DNA from: Nocardioidaceae bacterium SCSIO 66511
GTDB lineage: Bacteria > Actinomycetota > Actinomycetes > Propionibacteriales > Nocardioidaceae
NCBI GenBank assembly: GCA_023100825.1
Contig: CP095846.1
Coordinates: 3,162,001 to 3,226,000 of the forward strand
Reading direction: 5' to 3'
DNA length: 64,000 nt
Under the pieces are notes generated by a model, which saw only the letters and a list, made by a program, of their open reading frames with translations, made no database searches and was not told the origin of the DNA. A program made the position numbers and the translations under genes. Of this stretch, positions 15,068-38,659 are shown piece after piece (position 1 is the first letter of the stretch; each line of letters begins with the position of its first letter).

Positions 15068-15851
15068 GCTGCGCGAGACCGCCCGCGTCGAGCCGTGCTA
15101 GCTCGTCGAGAAGCCTCCACCGCAAGGATCCTGGGCCTTCCGCGGAAGCACCGGCGATCTCTCCCGCGGCCGACATCACTGCGAGTGCTCCGGTCGTCGC
15201 CTCGAACGTGTCGTCGTGCGCGGCAAGACATGCCCCGACGAGCGCACTCAATGAGCAGCCGAGTGCGGTGATCATCGGCATCCGCGGGTCGCCACCGCGG
15301 AGTACGAGCGGCTCACGTACGCCGTCGGTGACGTAGTCTTCCGGACCGGTCACCGCAACGACTGCGCCAGTACGCTTCGCGAGCGCGTCAGCGTGCCCGC
15401 GTACGTCGTCGAGCGAGGCGTCGCTGTCGACTCCCCTGCCGCCCGACGTACTCGTGGCGATGGTGAGGACCTCACTTGCATTGCCGCGGATGACGGTCGG
15501 CTCGAACTCGAGAAGGCGGTCGACCGTCTCGCGTCGGTAGGAGGTCGCACCGACCGCGACCGGATCCAGCACCCATGGCTTGCCGGTATCGCGGGCAGCC
15601 TCGGCCGCCTCGAGCATGCCGTCGACCCACCGTGGCGACGGCGTGCCGATGTTGGCGACGACGGCACCCGCGATACGCGCGAACTCCCCGGCCTCGCGTG
15701 GGTCGTGCACCATCGCCGGCGACGCACCGGCAGCGTTCAACACATTCGCGGCGAGGTCCATGGACACGTAGTTGGTGATGCACTGCACCAGCGGCGCCTG
15801 CTCGCGTACGGCCGCGTGCACGGCGATGACTGCGGGCGTGATGTGGCTCAT
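15054..15851 (-). CDS. thiM: hydroxyethylthiazole kinase
   Basis: ThiM, 265 residues, phosphorylates the thiazole alcohol for salvage. Visible motifs are QCITNYVSMDLAANVLNAAGASPAMVHDPREA near the N-terminus, KPWVLDPVAVGAT, IRGNASEV, VAVTGPEDYVTDG, and ALGCSLSALVGA with the catalytic Cys of the anion hole. ATG 15851 follows GGGAG with six bases between. That ribosome-binding site is also the 3' strand of the TPP aptamer's P1 helix, so the gene should be shut off when TPP is plentiful. First gene of thiM-thiE-thiD-tenA. Confidence 0.96.
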   Translation of the reverse strand: MSHITPAVIAVHAAVREQAPLVQCITNYVSMDLAANVLNAAGASPAMVHDPREAGEFARIAGAVVANIGTPSPRWVDGMLEAAEAARDTGKPWVLDPVAVGATSYRRETVDRLLEFEPTVIRGNASEVLTIATSTSGGRGVDSDASLDDVRGHADALAKRTGAVVAVTGPEDYVTDGVREPLVLRGGDPRMPMITALGCSLSALVGACLAAHDDTFEATTGALAVMSAAGEIAGASAEGPGSLRWRLLDELARLDAGGLAQHVDG

Positions 15852-15856
15852 CGTCA

Positions 15857-15926
15857 GCTCCCTTACGCCGGTATGACCCGGATCAGGTTCGGCGGGTGTG
15901 ATCTCAGCCTTGCGGCACCCCGGAAC
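15857..15926 (-). ncRNA. TPP (thi-box) riboswitch
   Basis: Read on the minus strand, the conserved aptamer order is present: GGGGTGCC, CTGAGATCACACCC, GAACCTGATCCGGGT, then CCGGCGTAAGGGAG. P1 can form from GUUCC (15926-15922) and GGAGC (15861-15857). The latter overlaps the thiM Shine-Dalgarno sequence. No U-tract terminator lies between aptamer and thiM, so control is probably at translation. Confidence 0.95.
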
Positions 15927-15986
15927 GGCGACCCCGACTCTAACAGCCTGCTGAGCGCTGGAGCAGCAGCCGACGAAGTGAGAGCA

Positions 15987-32149: not shown

Positions 32150-33175
32150 TCAGCGTGCCGCGCTGCCCTGTACGTAGTCGTCGTCGGTCTTGATCCACGC
32201 CATCAGGCCGCGCAGGTCCTTGCCGACCGCCTCGATCGGGTGCTTGGCACCCTCCTCGCGGAACTTCTTGAACTCCGGCGCGCCGGCGTCCTGGTCGTCG
32301 ATGAAGCGCTGCGCGAACGTACCGTCCTGGATCTCGTTGAGTACGTCCTTCATCCGCGCCTTCACCGACGCGTCGATGATGCGCGGACCCGATACGTAGT
32401 CGCCGTACTCGGCAGTGTCGGAGCACGACCAGCGCTGCTTGGCGATGCCACCCTCGTACATCAGATCGACGATCAGCTTCAGCTCATGGAGGCACTCGAA
32501 GTACGCGACCTCGGGCTGGTAACCCGCCTCGGTCAACGTCTCGAAGCCTGCCTGGATCAGCGACGAAACACCGCCGCACAGCACCGACTGCTCACCGAAC
32601 AGATCCGTCTCGGTCTCCTCGGTGAACGTCGTCTTGATGGCGCCGGCGCGCGTACCGCCGATGCCCTTCGCGTACGCCATCGTCAGCGGCCACGCATTGC
32701 CGGTGGCGTCCTGCTCCACCGCGACGAGCACAGGCACGCCGCGTCCCTCGACGTACTCGCGGCGGACGAGGTGGCCTGGGCCCTTCGGGGCGACCATGCA
32801 CACGTCGACGCCTGCCGGCGGCTTGATGTAGTCGTAGCGGATGTTGAAGCCGTGGCTGAAGAACAGCGCGTCTCCGTCGACCAGGTTGGGCTCGATGGCC
32901 TCCTTGTAGACGTGCCGCTGCACGTGGTCGGGCACGGCGACCACGATCAGGTCGGCCTCCTCGCACGCCTCGTACGGCGTGACGACCCGCAGGCCTTCGT
33001 CCTCGGCCTTCTGCCGGCTCTTCGAGCCCTCGGCCAGGCCGACGCGTACGTCGACACCGGAGTCGCGCAGCGACAGAGCGTGCGCGTGCCCCTGGCTGCC
33101 GTATCCCAGCACGGCGACATTGCGCTGCTGGATCACCGACAGGTCGGCGTCGTCGTCATAGAACATCTCGGGCAC
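32150..33175 (-). CDS. ilvC: ketol-acid reductoisomerase
   Basis: Second common step of Val/Ile/Leu synthesis: NADPH-dependent rearrangement and reduction of acetohydroxy acids. Class I enzyme of 341 residues. Nucleotide site [21 protein letters not shown]; catalytic segment [16 protein letters not shown]-terminal [60 protein letters not shown] 33175 gives the normal [12 protein letters not shown] start and has AAGGAG six bases upstream. Last gene of ilvB-ilvN-ilvC, 37 bp after ilvN, and thus under the ilvB attenuator. Confidence 0.97.
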
Positions 33176-33212: not shown

Positions 33213-33755
33213 TCAGCCGACCTGGCTGCTCGGCGGCGGACCGGGTACGGGGCGAAGTGCGCGGTCGCTGATCGAGCGGCTGCCGCGCCCGATGCCGACG
33301 AGACCGGACTGCACGAGCTCGCGGATTCCGAACGGCTCCAGGACGCGCATCATGGCGTCCAGCTTGCCGCGGTCACCGGTCGCCTCGATCGTCACGCTGT
33401 CCGGTGCGACGTCGACGACCTTCGCCCGGAACAGCTGCACCGTCTCGAGCACCTGGCTGCGCGTCGTCGGGTCTGCCTTGACCTTCACCAGGACCAGCTC
33501 GCGCTCGACCGACGATCCGGTGTCGAGCTCGACGATCTTGAGTACGTTGACCAGCTTGTTCAGCTGTTTGGTGACCTGCTCGAGGGGCAGCTGCTCGACG
33601 TTGACGACGATCGTCATCCGCGAGACACCCTTGATCTCGGTCGGTCCGACCGCGAGCGAGTCGATGTTGAAGCCGCGGCGCATGAACAGGCTCGAGACCC
33701 GCGCCAGCGCACCCGGCGTGTCCTCGACCAAAACCGAAAGCGTGTGCTTACTCAC
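33213..33755 (-). CDS. ilvN: acetolactate synthase regulatory subunit
   Basis: Small subunit of 180 residues that binds valine and activates IlvB. The N-terminal ACT domain reads [35 protein letters not shown]; the second half ([41 protein letters not shown]) matches ALS_ss_C. GTG 33755 is selected by GGAGGACG before it. The longer frame to 33902 overlaps ilvB and is rejected. It lies between ilvB (49 bp away) and ilvC. Confidence 0.96.
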
Positions 33756-33804
33756 TGCTCGTCCTCCTCGCAGCGCTGAATGGTTCGAGTCGTCCTCACA
33801 GTCC

Positions 33805-35562
33805 TCACAGCTCGTCCTCCTCGAACGTCGGCGCCATATCGCGCGCGATCTGTATCTCGTCGTTGCTGGTGCCAGCGGGCACCATCGGCCAGACCATCGC
33901 ATCGCGATGCACGACGAAGTCGATCACGACCGGGAGATCCTTGATCGACATCGCCTTCTCGATCGTGGCGTCGAGGTCCTCGGGGCGCTCGCAGCGCAGA
34001 CCGACGCAGCCGTACGCCTCGGCGAGCGTCACGAAATCGGGGATCCGCCGCGGACCTGCGGACGTGTGCAGGTCGGTGTTGGAGTAGCGCTCGTCGTAGA
34101 ACAGCGTCTGCCACTGTCGCACCATGCCGAGCGAGGAGTTGTTGATCACCGCGACCTTGACCGGGATGCCCTCGATCGCGCAGGTCGCGAGCTCCTGGTT
34201 GGTCATCTGGAAACAGCCGTCGCCGTCGATCGCCCAGACGACGTCGTCGGGCCGGGCGACCTGCGCGCCCATCGCCGCCGGCACGCAGAAGCCCATCGTG
34301 CCGAGTCCGCCGGAGTTGATCCACGCGGTCGGGCGTTCGTACGAGACGAACTGCGCCGCCCACATCTGGTGCTGGCCGACGCCCGCGACGTACGTCGCGT
34401 CGGGTCCGGCGATCTCGCCGATGCGCTTGATGACCTGTTGCGGAGCAAGAGAGTCGCCTTCGGGTTCGTCGTACCCGAGTGGGTACCGCTCGGCGATCCC
34501 GCGCATCATCGTCATCCAGGCTGTGTAGTCGCCCTGGTTGCCCGCGTCGTGCTCGGACTGCAGCGCGACGACGAGGTCGGCGATCGCCTCGCGGCAGTCG
34601 CCGACGATGGGTACGTCGGCAACGCGGTTCTTGGAGATCTCCGCCGGATCGATGTCGGCGTGGATCACCTTCGCGTCAGGGGCGAACGAGTCGAGCCGGC
34701 CGGTCACCCGGTCGTCGAACCGCGCGCCGAGCGAGACGATCAGGTCGCTACGCTGCAGGGCCGCGACCGCGGCGACCCCACCATGCATACCGGGCATGCC
34801 GAGGTGTAGTTCGTGTGAGTCCGGGAACGCGCCGCGAGCCATCAGCGTCGTGACGACGGGGATGCCGGTCATCTCCGCGAGTACGCGGAGCTCCTTACTC
34901 GCGCGCGCCCTGACAACACCGCCGCCGACGTAGAGCACCGGGCGCCTGGCCTCGTTGATCAGCCGCGCGGCCTCGCGGATCTGCTTGCCGTGCGGCCGTG
35001 GGTTCGGCCGGTATCCCGGCATGGAGATCTCGCCCGGCCACTCGAACGTCGTCTGTTGCTGCATCGCGTCTTTGGCGATGTCGACGAGCACCGGGCCGGG
35101 ACGGCCGGTCGAGGCGATGTGGAACGCCTCGGCGATGACCTTCGGGATCTCCGCCGGATCGGTGACGAGGTAGCTGTGCTTGGTGATCGGCATCGAGATG
35201 CCGCGGATGTCGGCCTCCTGGAACGCATCCGTGCCGATCGCACCGCTGGCCACCTGACCAGTGACGGCGACCAGTGGAACGGAGTCCATGTTGGCGTCGG
35301 CAAGCGGCGTCACGAGGTTGGTGGCTCCCGGACCCGAGGTCGCCATGCAGACGCCAACCTTGCCGGTCGCCACCGCATAGCCCTGTGCCGCGTGACCGGC
35401 GCCCTGCTCGTGGCGTACGAGGATGTGGCGGATCTGCGACGAGTCGAGCATCGGGTCGTACGCGGGCAGGATCGCGCCGCCCGGGATACCGAATACGGTG
35501 TCGACGCCCGCATGCTCCAACGCACGGATGAGGCTCTGTGCCCCGGTCATCTGCTCGCCCAT
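33805..35562 (-). CDS. ilvB: acetolactate synthase catalytic subunit
   Basis: ThDP- and FAD-dependent enzyme of 585 residues that makes acetolactate and acetohydroxybutyrate. The catalytic Glu lies in [17 protein letters not shown], the FAD region follows, and the ThDP motif is [29 protein letters not shown]. The N-terminus has [23 protein letters not shown] 35562 has GGAAGGA. The 5' leader of about 200 nt contains a leader peptide and a terminator, so transcription into ilvBNC should depend on charged Ile/Leu/Val tRNAs. Confidence 0.97.
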
Positions 35563-35681
35563 GGCGTCCTTCCTGGTGTGCTGGTCATCCCGGCGTCTGT
35601 TCGTCTCGGCGAGTGACTCGACTGCCGCCCCGCGGGTACGAGGCGCCTCTGCGAAGCAGATCCCGACCGCAGTGTCCCAAT

Positions 35682-35715
35682 AAAAAATCCCCTCGGCCGG
35701 GAGGCATTCGAGGGG
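35682..35715 (-). terminator. ilvB attenuator terminator
   Basis: The stem CCCCTCG / CGAGGGG (35715-35709 with 35695-35689) and a 13-nt loop are followed by A and a run of six T. It is the clearest U-tract terminator in the window and lies upstream of, not after, a gene. Confidence 0.85.
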
Positions 35716-35722
35716 GACGCGG

Positions 35723-35738
35723 GACCTGCAGTCAGGTC
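35723..35738 (-). promoter_or_regulatory. pause hairpin of the ilvB attenuator
   Basis: GACCTG-ACTG-CAGGTC folds into a perfect 6-bp stem just after the leader peptide stop, the usual position of the pause structure in amino-acid attenuators. Confidence 0.55.
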
Positions 35739-35744
35739 ATCGCG

Positions 35745-35774
35745 TCAATCGCGTACGAGAAGAATGAAACGCAC
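35745..35774 (-). CDS. ilvB leader peptide
   Basis: Nine codons followed by TGA encode MRFILLVRD (GTG start). Four consecutive codons, ATT CTT CTC GTA, specify Ile-Leu-Leu-Val, the regulatory amino acids. ATT and CTT are unusual in this GC-rich sequence. No ribosome-binding site precedes it, but the likely transcription start coincides with the GTG. The stop lies six bases before the pause hairpin. An overlapping longer frame from the ATG at about 35853 has no control-codon run and is less likely. Confidence 0.75.
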   Translation of the reverse strand: MRFILLVRD

Positions 35775-35782
35775 GAGACAAG

Positions 35783-35810
35783 ATTCCACCCAGCGCAAGG
35801 CTTCGGTCAA
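35783..35810 (-). promoter_or_regulatory. ilvB promoter
   Basis: TTGACC (35810-35805) and TGGAAT (35788-35783) are spaced 16 bp apart. The GTG of the leader peptide begins nine bases after the -10, so the leader peptide is probably read from a leaderless transcript. The -10 is only a moderate match. Confidence 0.5.
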
Positions 35811-35868
35811 GCCGCGAGATGGTTCGTCTCATCTTTCGAGATGGCTGTCTCGGCATTCAGCCAGTGAG

Positions 35869-36876
35869 TCACTCGGCAGTCCAGGCGAGCAGGTCATCGA
35901 CCGGACGCGTATTGATGATCCGGTCGATCGTCACGCCGGCGCGCTCGGCGCGCTCGCATCCGTACCCCTGCCAGTCGAGCTGACCCGGCGCATGGGAGTC
36001 GGTGTCGATGGAGAACTCGCAGCCCATCTCGACGGCGAGGCGAAGTAGCCGCATCGGCGGATCGCGCCGCTCGGGCCGGCTGTTGATCTCGACCGCTGTT
36101 CCGTTATCGCGGCAGGCGGCGAAAACCGCCTCCGCGTCGAACGTCGACTCCGGCCGGGTGCCGCGGGCGCCCTCGACCAGGCGACCGGTGCAATGCCCGA
36201 GGATGTCGACGTGCGGGTTGGCGACCGCAGTGGTCATGCGTTTGGTCATGACACCTGGGTCGGCGCGGAGCTTGGAATGCACACTCGCCACCACGACGTC
36301 GAGGCGACCCAGCAGATCGTCGCGCTGGTCGAGCGAACCGTCGTCGAGGATGTCGACCTCGATCCCGGTGAGGATCCGAAACGGCGCCAACCGCTCATTG
36401 AGCTCGGCGAGTACGTCGAGCTGGCGCTCGAGCCGCTCGGCAGAGAGCCCGTTCGCAACCGTGAGCCGCGGCGAGTGATCGGTGAGCGCCGCGTACTCGT
36501 GTCCGAGTGACGCCGCGCGGCGCATCATCTCCTCGATCGGGCTGCCGCCGTCGGACCAGTCCGAATGCAGGTGCAGGTCTCCGCGCAACGCCTGCCGGAT
36601 CTCGGCGCCGCCGCCGATGGGTTTTGCCTCGGCCTTCAGGTCGACCAGCTTCGTCGGCTCCTCACCGGCGACCGCCTGCGAGATCGCCTTCGCCGTGGAC
36701 GGGCCGATACCCGAGAGCCTGGTCCACGACCGCGCCTTCGCATGCTGTTCACGCTCGGCCGCGGTCAGCCCCTCGACGATGTCGGCCGCCTTCCGGTACG
36801 CCTGCACCCGCCTCGTCTCGGCGCGTGAGCGCTCCATCCAGAACGCGATCTCCCGCAGCGCATCGACCGGATCCAT
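35869..36876 (-). CDS. PHP-domain metal-dependent phosphoesterase with helix-hairpin-helix N-terminus
   Basis: A 335-residue protein. The N-terminal 90 residues resemble the DNA polymerase X / HhH region (MDPVDALREIAFWMERSRAETRRVQAYRKAADIV; LSGIGPSTAKAISQ). From about residue 98 a PHP domain carries the expected metal ligands: GDLHLHSDWSDGG, ALTDHSPRL, GIEVDILDDG, VASVHSKL, HVDILGHCTG, EFSIDTDSHAPGQL. There is no polymerase domain. Function is unproven; DNA repair or histidinol-phosphatase-like activity are options. ATG 36876 has no ribosome-binding site. Confidence 0.88.
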   Translation of the reverse strand: MDPVDALREIAFWMERSRAETRRVQAYRKAADIVEGLTAAEREQHAKARSWTRLSGIGPSTAKAISQAVAGEEPTKLVDLKAEAKPIGGGAEIRQALRGDLHLHSDWSDGGSPIEEMMRRAASLGHEYAALTDHSPRLTVANGLSAERLERQLDVLAELNERLAPFRILTGIEVDILDDGSLDQRDDLLGRLDVVVASVHSKLRADPGVMTKRMTTAVANPHVDILGHCTGRLVEGARGTRPESTFDAEAVFAACRDNGTAVEINSRPERRDPPMRLLRLAVEMGCEFSIDTDSHAPGQLDWQGYGCERAERAGVTIDRIINTRPVDDLLAWTAE

Positions 36877-36910
36877 GCGGGTCAGCGTACGGGCTGGAGG
36901 TCGCCGGCCG

Positions 36911-36971
36911 GTTTTGTATCCCTGCGTGAGAGATACGAACCTATTGGAGCTGTGTCGCAGGGATACAAAAC
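36911..36971. terminator. 16-bp perfect inverted repeat downstream of ilvD
   Basis: Arms GTTTTGTATCCCTGCG (36911-36926) and CGCAGGGATACAAAAC (36956-36971) enclose a 29-nt loop, 15 bp after the ilvD stop and just upstream of the PHP gene. It has no U-tract, but its plan (long perfect arms ending in T4/A4) resembles the element at 32080-32138. Confidence 0.6.
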
Positions 36972-36985
36972 GCCGACGACCGAAA

Positions 36986-38659
36986 TCAACCGCAGATCGC
37001 GCCGTGCGCAGCCGACTTGACCAGCTTCGCGTACTTCGCGAGTACGCCGCGGTCGTACTGGGCGGGTAGCGGCTGCCATCCCTCTCGCCTGGCATCCAGC
37101 TCGTCCTTGTCGACGACGACGTCGAGTGTCTTGTTCGCTACGTCGAGGCGGATCCGGTCGCCGTCACGGACGAACGCGATCGGGCCGCCGTCGACCGCCT
37201 CGGGCGCGACGTGGCCGACGCAGAGACCGGTGGTGCCTCCGGAGAAGCGTCCGTCGGTGAGCAGGAGTACGTCCTTGCCGAGCCCGGCGCCCTTGATCGC
37301 ACCGGTGATCGCGAGCATCTCGCGCATGCCCGGCCCGCCCTTCGGACCTTCGTACCGGATGACGACGGCGTCTCCGGCCTGTACTGTTCCGTCCGCGAGC
37401 GCCTCCATCGCATGCTGCTCACGCTCGAACACCCTGGCCGTGCCCTCGAACACATCGTTGTCGAAGCCTGCGCTCTTCACGACCGCGCCCTCGGGTGCGA
37501 GCGACCCGTGCAGGATGGTGAGTCCGCCGGTCTTGTGGATCGGGTTGGAGAGCTCGCGGATGATGTCTCCGTCGACGTTGGACGGTACGTCCGCGAGGTT
37601 CTCGGCCATCGTCTTGCCGGTGACGGTCAGGCAGTCGCCGTGCATGAGTCCGGCGTCGAGAAGGGTCTTCATCACGACCGGGATGCCGCCGACCTTGTCG
37701 ACATCGTTCATCACGTACTTGCCGAACGGTTTGAGGTCGCCGAGGTGCGGCACGGTGTCGCCGACGCGGCTGAAGTCGTCGAGAGTCAGGTCGACATCGG
37801 CCTCGCGCGCGATGGCCAGCAGATGGAGCACGGCGTTCGTGGAGCCGCCGAGTGCCATGACGACCGCGATCGCGTTCTCGAACGCCTCCTTCGTCATGAT
37901 CTGACGGGCAGTGATGCCCTTCTCGAGCATCCCTACGACGGCTCGACCGGAGCTGTGCGCGAAGCCGTCGCGGCGCCGGTCGACCGCCGGCGGCGCGGCC
38001 GACCCGGGTAGCGACATGCCCAGGGCCTCGGCAACCGACGCCATCGTGTTGGCGGTGTACATGCCGCCGCACGCACCCTCGCCCGGGCAGATCGCACGCT
38101 CGATCTCGTCGACCTTCTCGCGGCTGATGAGTCCGCGCATACAAGCGCCGACGGCCTCGAACGCATCGATGATCGTGACGTCCTGGCCGTCCACCTGACC
38201 GGGCATGATCGAGCCGGCGTACAGGAAGACGCTCGCGAGGTCGAGACGCGCGGCAGCCATCAGCATGCCCGGCAGGCTTTTGTCGCATCCGGCGAGCAGC
38301 ACCGACCCGTCGAGTCGCTCGGCCATCATCACGGTCTCGACCGAGTCCGCGATCACCTCACGCGACACCAGCGAGAAGTGCATCCCCTCGTGTCCCATGG
38401 AGATTCCGTCGGAGACGGAGATGGTGCCGAACTCGAGCGGGTAGCCGCGCGCCTCGTGTACGCCGGCCTTCACTGCGTCGGCCAACCGGTCGAGCGACAG
38501 GTTGCACGGCGTGATCTCGTTCCAGCTGGACGCTACGCCGATCTGCGGCTTGGCGAAGTCGTCGTCGTCCATGCCGACGGCACGGAGCATGCCGCGAGCG
38601 GCCGCCTTCTCGAGTCCATCGGTGACGTCACGGCTGCGGGGTTTGATGTCGGGGGCCAT
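36986..38659 (-). CDS. ilvD: dihydroxyacid dehydratase
   Basis: Fe-S dehydratase of the third common branched-chain step, 557 residues. Cluster cysteines lie in [28 protein letters not shown] and [40 protein letters not shown] and the C-terminal [20 protein letters not shown] with the catalytic Ser are also present. ATG 38659 ([25 protein letters not shown]) is a standard start. It precedes the PHP gene and the ilvB attenuator on the same strand, but the inverted repeat after it suggests separate transcription. Confidence 0.97.

Follow-up and report, generated by a model that had tools for sequence, protein, structure and literature searches.

We found that the feature upstream of ilvB in Nocardioidaceae bacterium SCSIO 66511 is a genuine, conserved branched-chain attenuator. 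It lies in the window, by which we mean the whole stretch of 64,000 nucleotides of contig CP095846.1 that was analyzed, and it consists of a short frame with isoleucine, leucine and valine codons upstream of ilvB, which is followed by an intrinsic terminator. We consider it highly probable that ilvBNC is controlled by ribosome-mediated transcription attenuation and that the leader peptide involved is translated from a leaderless mRNA.

Layout of the leader upstream of ilvB

The elements of the leader and the genes downstream of it are located as follows:

35805..35810, minus strand: -35 element TTGACC, read from the sequence; its first base lies 36 nt before the leader GTG
35781..35786, minus strand: -10 element GAATCT (NANNNT), read from the sequence; six bases before the GTG
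35745..35774, minus strand: leader peptide frame GTG...TGA, MRFILLVRD, probably leaderless; sequence and a same-genus match
35716..35746, minus strand: hairpin A, two stacked 6-bp stems GACGCG/CGCGUC and GACCUG/CAGGUC; folding and covariation
35689..35715, minus strand: terminator hairpin CCCCUCG...CGAGGGG, flush with hairpin A; folding and covariation
35682..35687, minus strand: U6 tract of the terminator, read from the sequence
33805..35562, minus strand: ilvB, acetolactate synthase large subunit; NCBIfam NF005860, 1101.7 bits, cut-off 881
33213..33902, minus strand: ilvN, acetolactate synthase small subunit; NF008864, 221.8 bits, cut-off 119, residues 51-211
32150..33175, minus strand: ilvC, ketol-acid reductoisomerase; NF004017, 555.6 bits, cut-off 336

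The two promoter elements are separated by a spacer of 18 nt. The leader reads GTG CGT TTC ATT CTT CTC GTA CGC GAT TGA, with its start codon at 35774-35772, the control codons ATT CTT CTC GTA at 35765-35754 and the stop codon, which is overlapped by the 5' arm of hairpin A, at 35747-35745. Between the T-run and the ilvB start (ATG 35562) there are 119 bases, and the true start of ilvN is probably internal to the open reading frame as listed. The upstream open reading frame ends at 35869, which is 94 bases before the leader GTG. The region directly upstream of the leader (35869-38659, minus strand) carries ilvD and a PHP-domain gene in the same direction, and these open reading frames overlap as listed.

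These data confirm, on the minus strand, the nine-codon frame starting at GTG 35774 and the stem followed by six T that a first-pass annotation of the sequence had described. A pause hairpin had also been proposed and it is present, but its size had to be corrected: it consists of two stacked 6-bp stems and it touches the terminator. The -10 element had been placed nine bases before the GTG; since the best -10 ends six bases before this codon, that position was off by three.

When both strands of the window were scanned for a stem with a T5 run behind a short frame that contains four I/L/V codons in a row, this was the single place that emerged. There were few chances for such a hit, since the window has only 4 T-runs of five or longer; stop codons that follow four I/L/V codons in a row number 10. 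A generic promoter/terminator scanner, which we judged too strict (loops of 3-8, at least 9 of 12 promoter matches), made no call within 35500-36000, and because of this silence our promoter and terminator calls rest on comparison and folding. Rfam searches of the ilvB leader region yielded sub-threshold matches only, the best of which was on the plus strand (23.9 bits, gathering score 44), and a tRNA scan of the whole window returned none. A TPP riboswitch at 15840-15932 of the window (minus strand) scored 54.3 bits, which is exactly the gathering score. Folding of the ilvB leader gave a z-score of -3.85, with none of 200 shuffles as good, and in the lowest-energy fold hairpin A and the terminator coexist.

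Conservation among relatives and the probable leaderless start

For comparison we assembled 110 ilvB loci, namely 30 from 39 genomes searched and the best 80 named matches listed, the latter being biased toward IlvB proteins similar to that of the window. A leader filter, which required the end of an ILV-rich frame and a T-run 20-130 nt downstream, was passed by 87 of these 110 loci, compared with 8 on the opposite strand and an average of 7.2 in dinucleotide shuffles. Among the 23 failures, 13 bear names that we take to denote Microbacteriaceae, one being titled so in its record (L087, L092, L093, L097, L098, L100-L103, L105-L108). At several of these Microbacteriaceae loci the DNA shortly upstream of ilvB holds a frame resembling the end of ilvD, and their ilvB may be transcribed together with ilvD. 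The remaining failures comprise two loci with too little upstream DNA (L091, L104), two clear leaders that the filter missed (L013, L038), three loci where a degenerate frame lies at the correct distance from TTGAC (L054, L062, L086), two loci with visible leaders (L036, L095) and one in which none is visible (L056).

One same-genus genome among those searched (L002) has the identical peptide and the identical -35 element, with GAACGT replacing GAATCT. The leaders found in relatives are similar to those of Nocardioides, Aeromicrobium and Kribbella, which makes the Propionibacteriales the most likely origin of the window. In Streptomyces, loci like L048 can be aligned with it over promoter, control codons, hairpin A and terminator. 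Promoter, control codons and hairpins are conserved in other ilvB leaders. The first-pass annotation had suggested aligning the leader in relatives and had regarded lack of conservation as fatal to its proposal; we found the ILV codons, hairpin A and the terminator conserved, with covariation in both hairpins.

It had also been noticed that ATT and CTT are uncommon in this DNA, and this holds widely in the leaders of relatives. Over the control stretches of 74 leaders, 73% of the Ile codons are ATT, 74% of the Val codons GTA and 39% of the Leu codons CTT, whereas in ilvB of the same 74 loci (first 500 codons per locus) the corresponding shares are 4%, 2% and 3%. GTA is in frame in 70 of the 74 leaders.

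Covariation was scored in 33 of 84 leaders, hand-picked for spread. Here, 93.9% of the cells pair, 8 of 13 pairs changed on both sides (shuffled mean 5.0), and the score for both helices was 0.273, compared with 0.168 in shuffled data and at most 0.107 in slid registers. Arm swapping of hairpin A was carried out on the 70 loci with in-frame GTA, thinned to 53: native arms gave -21.1 and swapped arms -15.7 kcal/mol, and none of 2000 permutations was as good, but the native partner was the single best in 13 of the 53 loci only. For the terminator arms the values were -17.1 (native) and -13.3 kcal/mol (swapped; 56 loci).

Spacing was counted in 74 of 81 leaders with a terminator call, the doubtful L050, L057, L069, L072, L073, L099 and L109 being left out. 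Hairpin A starts 9-11 nt past the first base of GTA in 56 of 70 leaders, the value for the window being 10 nt. The gap between hairpin A and terminator is 0 or -1 in 59 of the 74 leaders, as against 39% in shuffled sequence, in a count that ignores relatedness and in which the method disallowed overlaps of more than one base. Hairpin A begins near nt 29 in 9-codon as well as in 13-codon leaders (exactly at nt 29 in 25 of 81), and therefore its position goes with the control codons and not with the stop codon. A start-proximal hairpin (GUGCG/CGUAC) was considered as an anti-antiterminator and set aside; it occurs in the window and some relatives and is, by eye, missing in others.

The promoter geometry was evaluated in 84 of the 87 leaders (L061, L068 and L090, which have no ATG or GTG by the rule applied, were left out), and the start codons were picked blind to the promoter. 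The distance from the first base of TTGAC to the leader start is 35 bases in 7 loci, 36 in 38, 37 in 21 and 38 in 2 (68 of 84); TTGAC was found at this distance before the ilvB start in none of the 84, and its exact form is absent in 15 leaders. Similarly, the first base of NANNNT lies 12 nt upstream of the leader start in 44 and 13 nt upstream in 34 of the 84 leaders, compared with 0-4 times at each of the other offsets (9 to 18). Because the promoter elements sit at such a distance, transcription would start at the leader start codon, and the leader peptide is very probably translated from a leaderless mRNA. Counting of SD-like cores was dropped as support for this conclusion, since cores of at least 4 bases occur before 37 of 84 leader starts and before 32 of 84 ilvB starts (random about 15 of 84), so that the two kinds of start are not separated by it.

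These SD statistics are compatible with an attenuator that has a 5' untranslated region, the mRNA beginning further upstream. We regard this as very unlikely, since the promoter elements keep a fixed distance to the start codon, the upstream open reading frame stops 94 bases ahead of the GTG, and leaderless starts are mapped in relatives. The S. lividans IlvL attenuator of ilvBHC (MRTRILVLGKRVG) has been described as leaderless by RNA 5' ends (PMC8079986), and a mapped leaderless start has been published for the C. diphtheriae ilvB leader (PMC5784534); for C. glutamicum, the transcription start is given as one nucleotide from the leader start codon (PMC11857589, citing other work). These mapped starts and the fixed promoter distance support the leaderless start that the first-pass annotation had suggested, and we saw no indication that transcription begins downstream of the leader. 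Its view that this is not the usual textbook layout is correct when E. coli is the reference, but for actinobacterial ilvB the layout had already been described. Leaderless ilvB leader peptides are thus known from S. lividans and C. diphtheriae, and nearly so from C. glutamicum, and the attenuator in the window, with its probably leaderless peptide, is a clear further example of this kind of switch.

Related leaders at cimA and in other genomes

A covariance model (R1) built from the 33 leaders gave one strong match in the genome itself, which is the ilvB leader (1.2e-18; the window sequence is part of the model). Of 149 genomes drawn from the phylum, 16 match the model at 0.001 or better. Among the matches listed, 12 of 13 same-class genomes match it, and four genomes outside the class do so at 1.6e-4 to 7.7e-4. 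In one of the latter (L124), an ILV-rich frame ending VLILVPRPRLVGG precedes a gene that reads as ilvB, so that the design may reach beyond the class. Others among these matches are Leu-rich leaders with a terminator: MRSFALELLLR before leuA (L127; NF002086, 692 bits, cut-off 532) and VRTGLLLTEPR before leuS (L128), the latter gene being cut by the locus end and scoring 448 bits, which is under the cut-off of 548. Leu leaders at leuA and leuS have already been published for S. lividans (PMC8079986).

The model also produced a second, weak match in the same genome (E 0.39, 19.1 bits), about 3.6 kb before the window. This is an Ile leader, VHTSATIIPRRV, at G000:C1:3158280-3158402 on the minus strand (1501-1623 of locus L112), with hairpin and terminator and with the citramalate synthase gene cimA downstream (TIGR00977, 596 bits, cut-off 450). 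It reads GTG CAC ACC AGC GCC ACG ATC ATT CCC AGG CGC GTC TAG. A short Ile-codon leader with hairpin and terminator is present at 26 of 30 cimA loci, this genome included, examples being MTARQVIIC, MVASYTVIIT and VQRQIIIS. There is no leader at four of the 30 (L136, L140, L141, L153), among which L136 has upstream DNA; the L144 leader contains just one codon for Ile, and in those of L131, L132 and L156 the Ile codons are interspersed with other I/L/V codons.

The following counts refer to 25 cimA leaders, for six of which the start was placed by eye; L135, added by eye, is outside them. In 21 of 25, hairpin A follows the last Ile codon at a distance of 8-9 nt, and all 25 show a gap of -1 to 1 between A and the terminator. 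In 18 thinned loci, native arms gave -23.4 and swapped arms -18.3, and none of 2000 permutations was as good. The -35 element is mostly other than TTGAC, and -10 counts are circular for 19 of the 25, where the filter itself required NANNNT. Rfam contains no family for the cimA leader (best 24.7 bits, threshold 43), and a search of full-text literature, which does not cover subscription journals, listed no paper on a cimA leader peptide.

Proposed mode of action and its alternatives

For the mode of action we propose the following sequence of events. RNA polymerase would start at the G of GTG 35774, and a ribosome would load on the bare 5' end and translate MRFILLVRD. When Ile-, Leu- and Val-tRNA are charged, this ribosome would reach the stop codon at the 5' arm of hairpin A and keep A open, so that the terminator could form and ilvBNC would be off. 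Upon shortage of one of these amino acids the ribosome would stall on ATT CTT CTC GTA, and hairpin A, which lies just ahead, could fold, hinder the terminator and let transcription continue. Helices can begin about 7-9 nt after the A-site codon. Hairpin A would go with starvation because a stalled ribosome leaves it free and a ribosome at the stop codon opens it. We infer where transcription starts, which positions the ribosome takes and, most of all, how A causes read-through, the last because A and the terminator coexist in the fold and no stable alternative was seen in 13 loci.

Published systems share much of this architecture. S. lividans IlvL and the window both have an ILV leader, hairpins and a U-rich terminator before ilvB, but the S. 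lividans leader has 13 codons and that of the window 9, and the stop codon is inside hairpin A in Streptomyces and at its start in the window. The Corynebacterium ilvBNC attenuator or ilvB-II motif (PMC11857589, PMC5784534, PMC10272879), with a leaderless or one-nucleotide leader, likewise combines a BCAA-rich peptide and a terminator hairpin with ilvBNC downstream; here, 15-17 codons are usual, and a three-hairpin model with a three-base overlap was put forward, whereas the hairpins of the window are flush (Corynebacterium is outside the loci aligned here). The leader of M. tuberculosis ilvB1 also has a BCAA uORF (LVVI), which is longer, and a terminator, it reads through on BCAA shortage, and its response was lost on LVVI-to-AAAA exchange in a reporter (PMC13236596).

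Two versions of the action of A stand. Either A abuts on the terminator, whose stem would be kept from closing in the polymerase exit channel, or the two overlap. For the Actinomycetes in general one might imagine a single leaderless design, used at several branched-chain genes with swapped codons (I/L/V at ilvB, Ile at cimA), that acts by abutment and not by alternative pairing, and we put this forward tentatively, as a possibility that is rather doubtful in this full form. Here, A would keep a constant distance of 8-11 nt downstream of the last control codon, touch the terminator and block closure of its stem; the two helices would be compatible in free RNA, yet A would hinder closure in the exit channel. 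In the overlap model, hairpin A has a few bases in common with the terminator and is in competition with the lowest part of the terminator stem. The model is one form of our preferred explanation, though not of flush abutment, and we consider it quite plausible, if short of probable. It has been published for C. glutamicum with mutants (PMC11857589), and the Kribbella-like L021 shows open overlap of A and terminator. Before the terminator 3' arm exists, 39 of 74 leaders lose at least 2 bases of the terminator 5' arm to upstream pairing, the number in the window being three; in 25 of the 74, however, no base is captured and in 10 there is one, and the three bases of the window pair with nt 24-26, which are probably covered by a ribosome on GTA.

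E. coli-type attenuators have an SD-led leader and a stable 2:3 antiterminator. They share with the window element a leader peptide with control codons for the pathway products before an intrinsic terminator, and theirs is the best-known mechanism: a stalled ribosome would cover A at its 5' arm and so leave the 3' arm of A free to pair with the terminator 5' arm. When the last Val codon is masked, weak pairings of this kind do appear in some folds, that of the window included. However, folding of 13 loci revealed such weak pairings only and no stable, mutually exclusive 2:3 antiterminator. When the leader was masked as far as its stop codon and the terminator 3' arm was still lacking, the total energies were only -0.3 to -9.2 kcal/mol, the terminator is present in every full fold, and the control codons lie upstream of A, outside its 5' arm. 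This makes a classical mechanism unlikely here, and the word complete, which the first-pass annotation had used for the attenuator, is too strong, given that no stable 2:3 antiterminator was seen. The simplest alternative, a constitutive terminator that follows a chance short frame and regulates nothing, would need only the fold and the T-run. We consider it extremely improbable, since the leader frame, its rare codons and hairpin A are conserved, A covaries, and leaders of the same class respond in experiments on C. glutamicum (PMC11857589) and M. tuberculosis (PMC13236596).

Two published observations argue against ribosome-mediated attenuation as we propose it. Mutations of candidate ilvB control codons in S. 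coelicolor are said to be without effect (PMC1262725), and in C. glutamicum expression fell by 80% when the leader start codon was lost (PMC11857589), which is not predicted by a model in which A alone antiterminates. Neither the C. glutamicum start-codon mutant nor the S. coelicolor codon mutants are explained by abutment alone or by overlap alone.

Taken as a regulatory device, this attenuator would make the expression of genes for isoleucine, leucine and valine biosynthesis responsive to the supply of these three amino acids. Many Actinomycetes have preserved its probably leaderless layout, its rare control codons and the short distance between its two hairpins. What is noteworthy here is the shared codon-to-hairpin ruler, the close hairpin spacing and the Ile version at cimA. 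The conserved spacing bears on how such leaders stop termination, a point which the papers on S. coelicolor and C. glutamicum left unclear, and the Ile-only cimA leader provides a natural specificity control for the ilvB leader.
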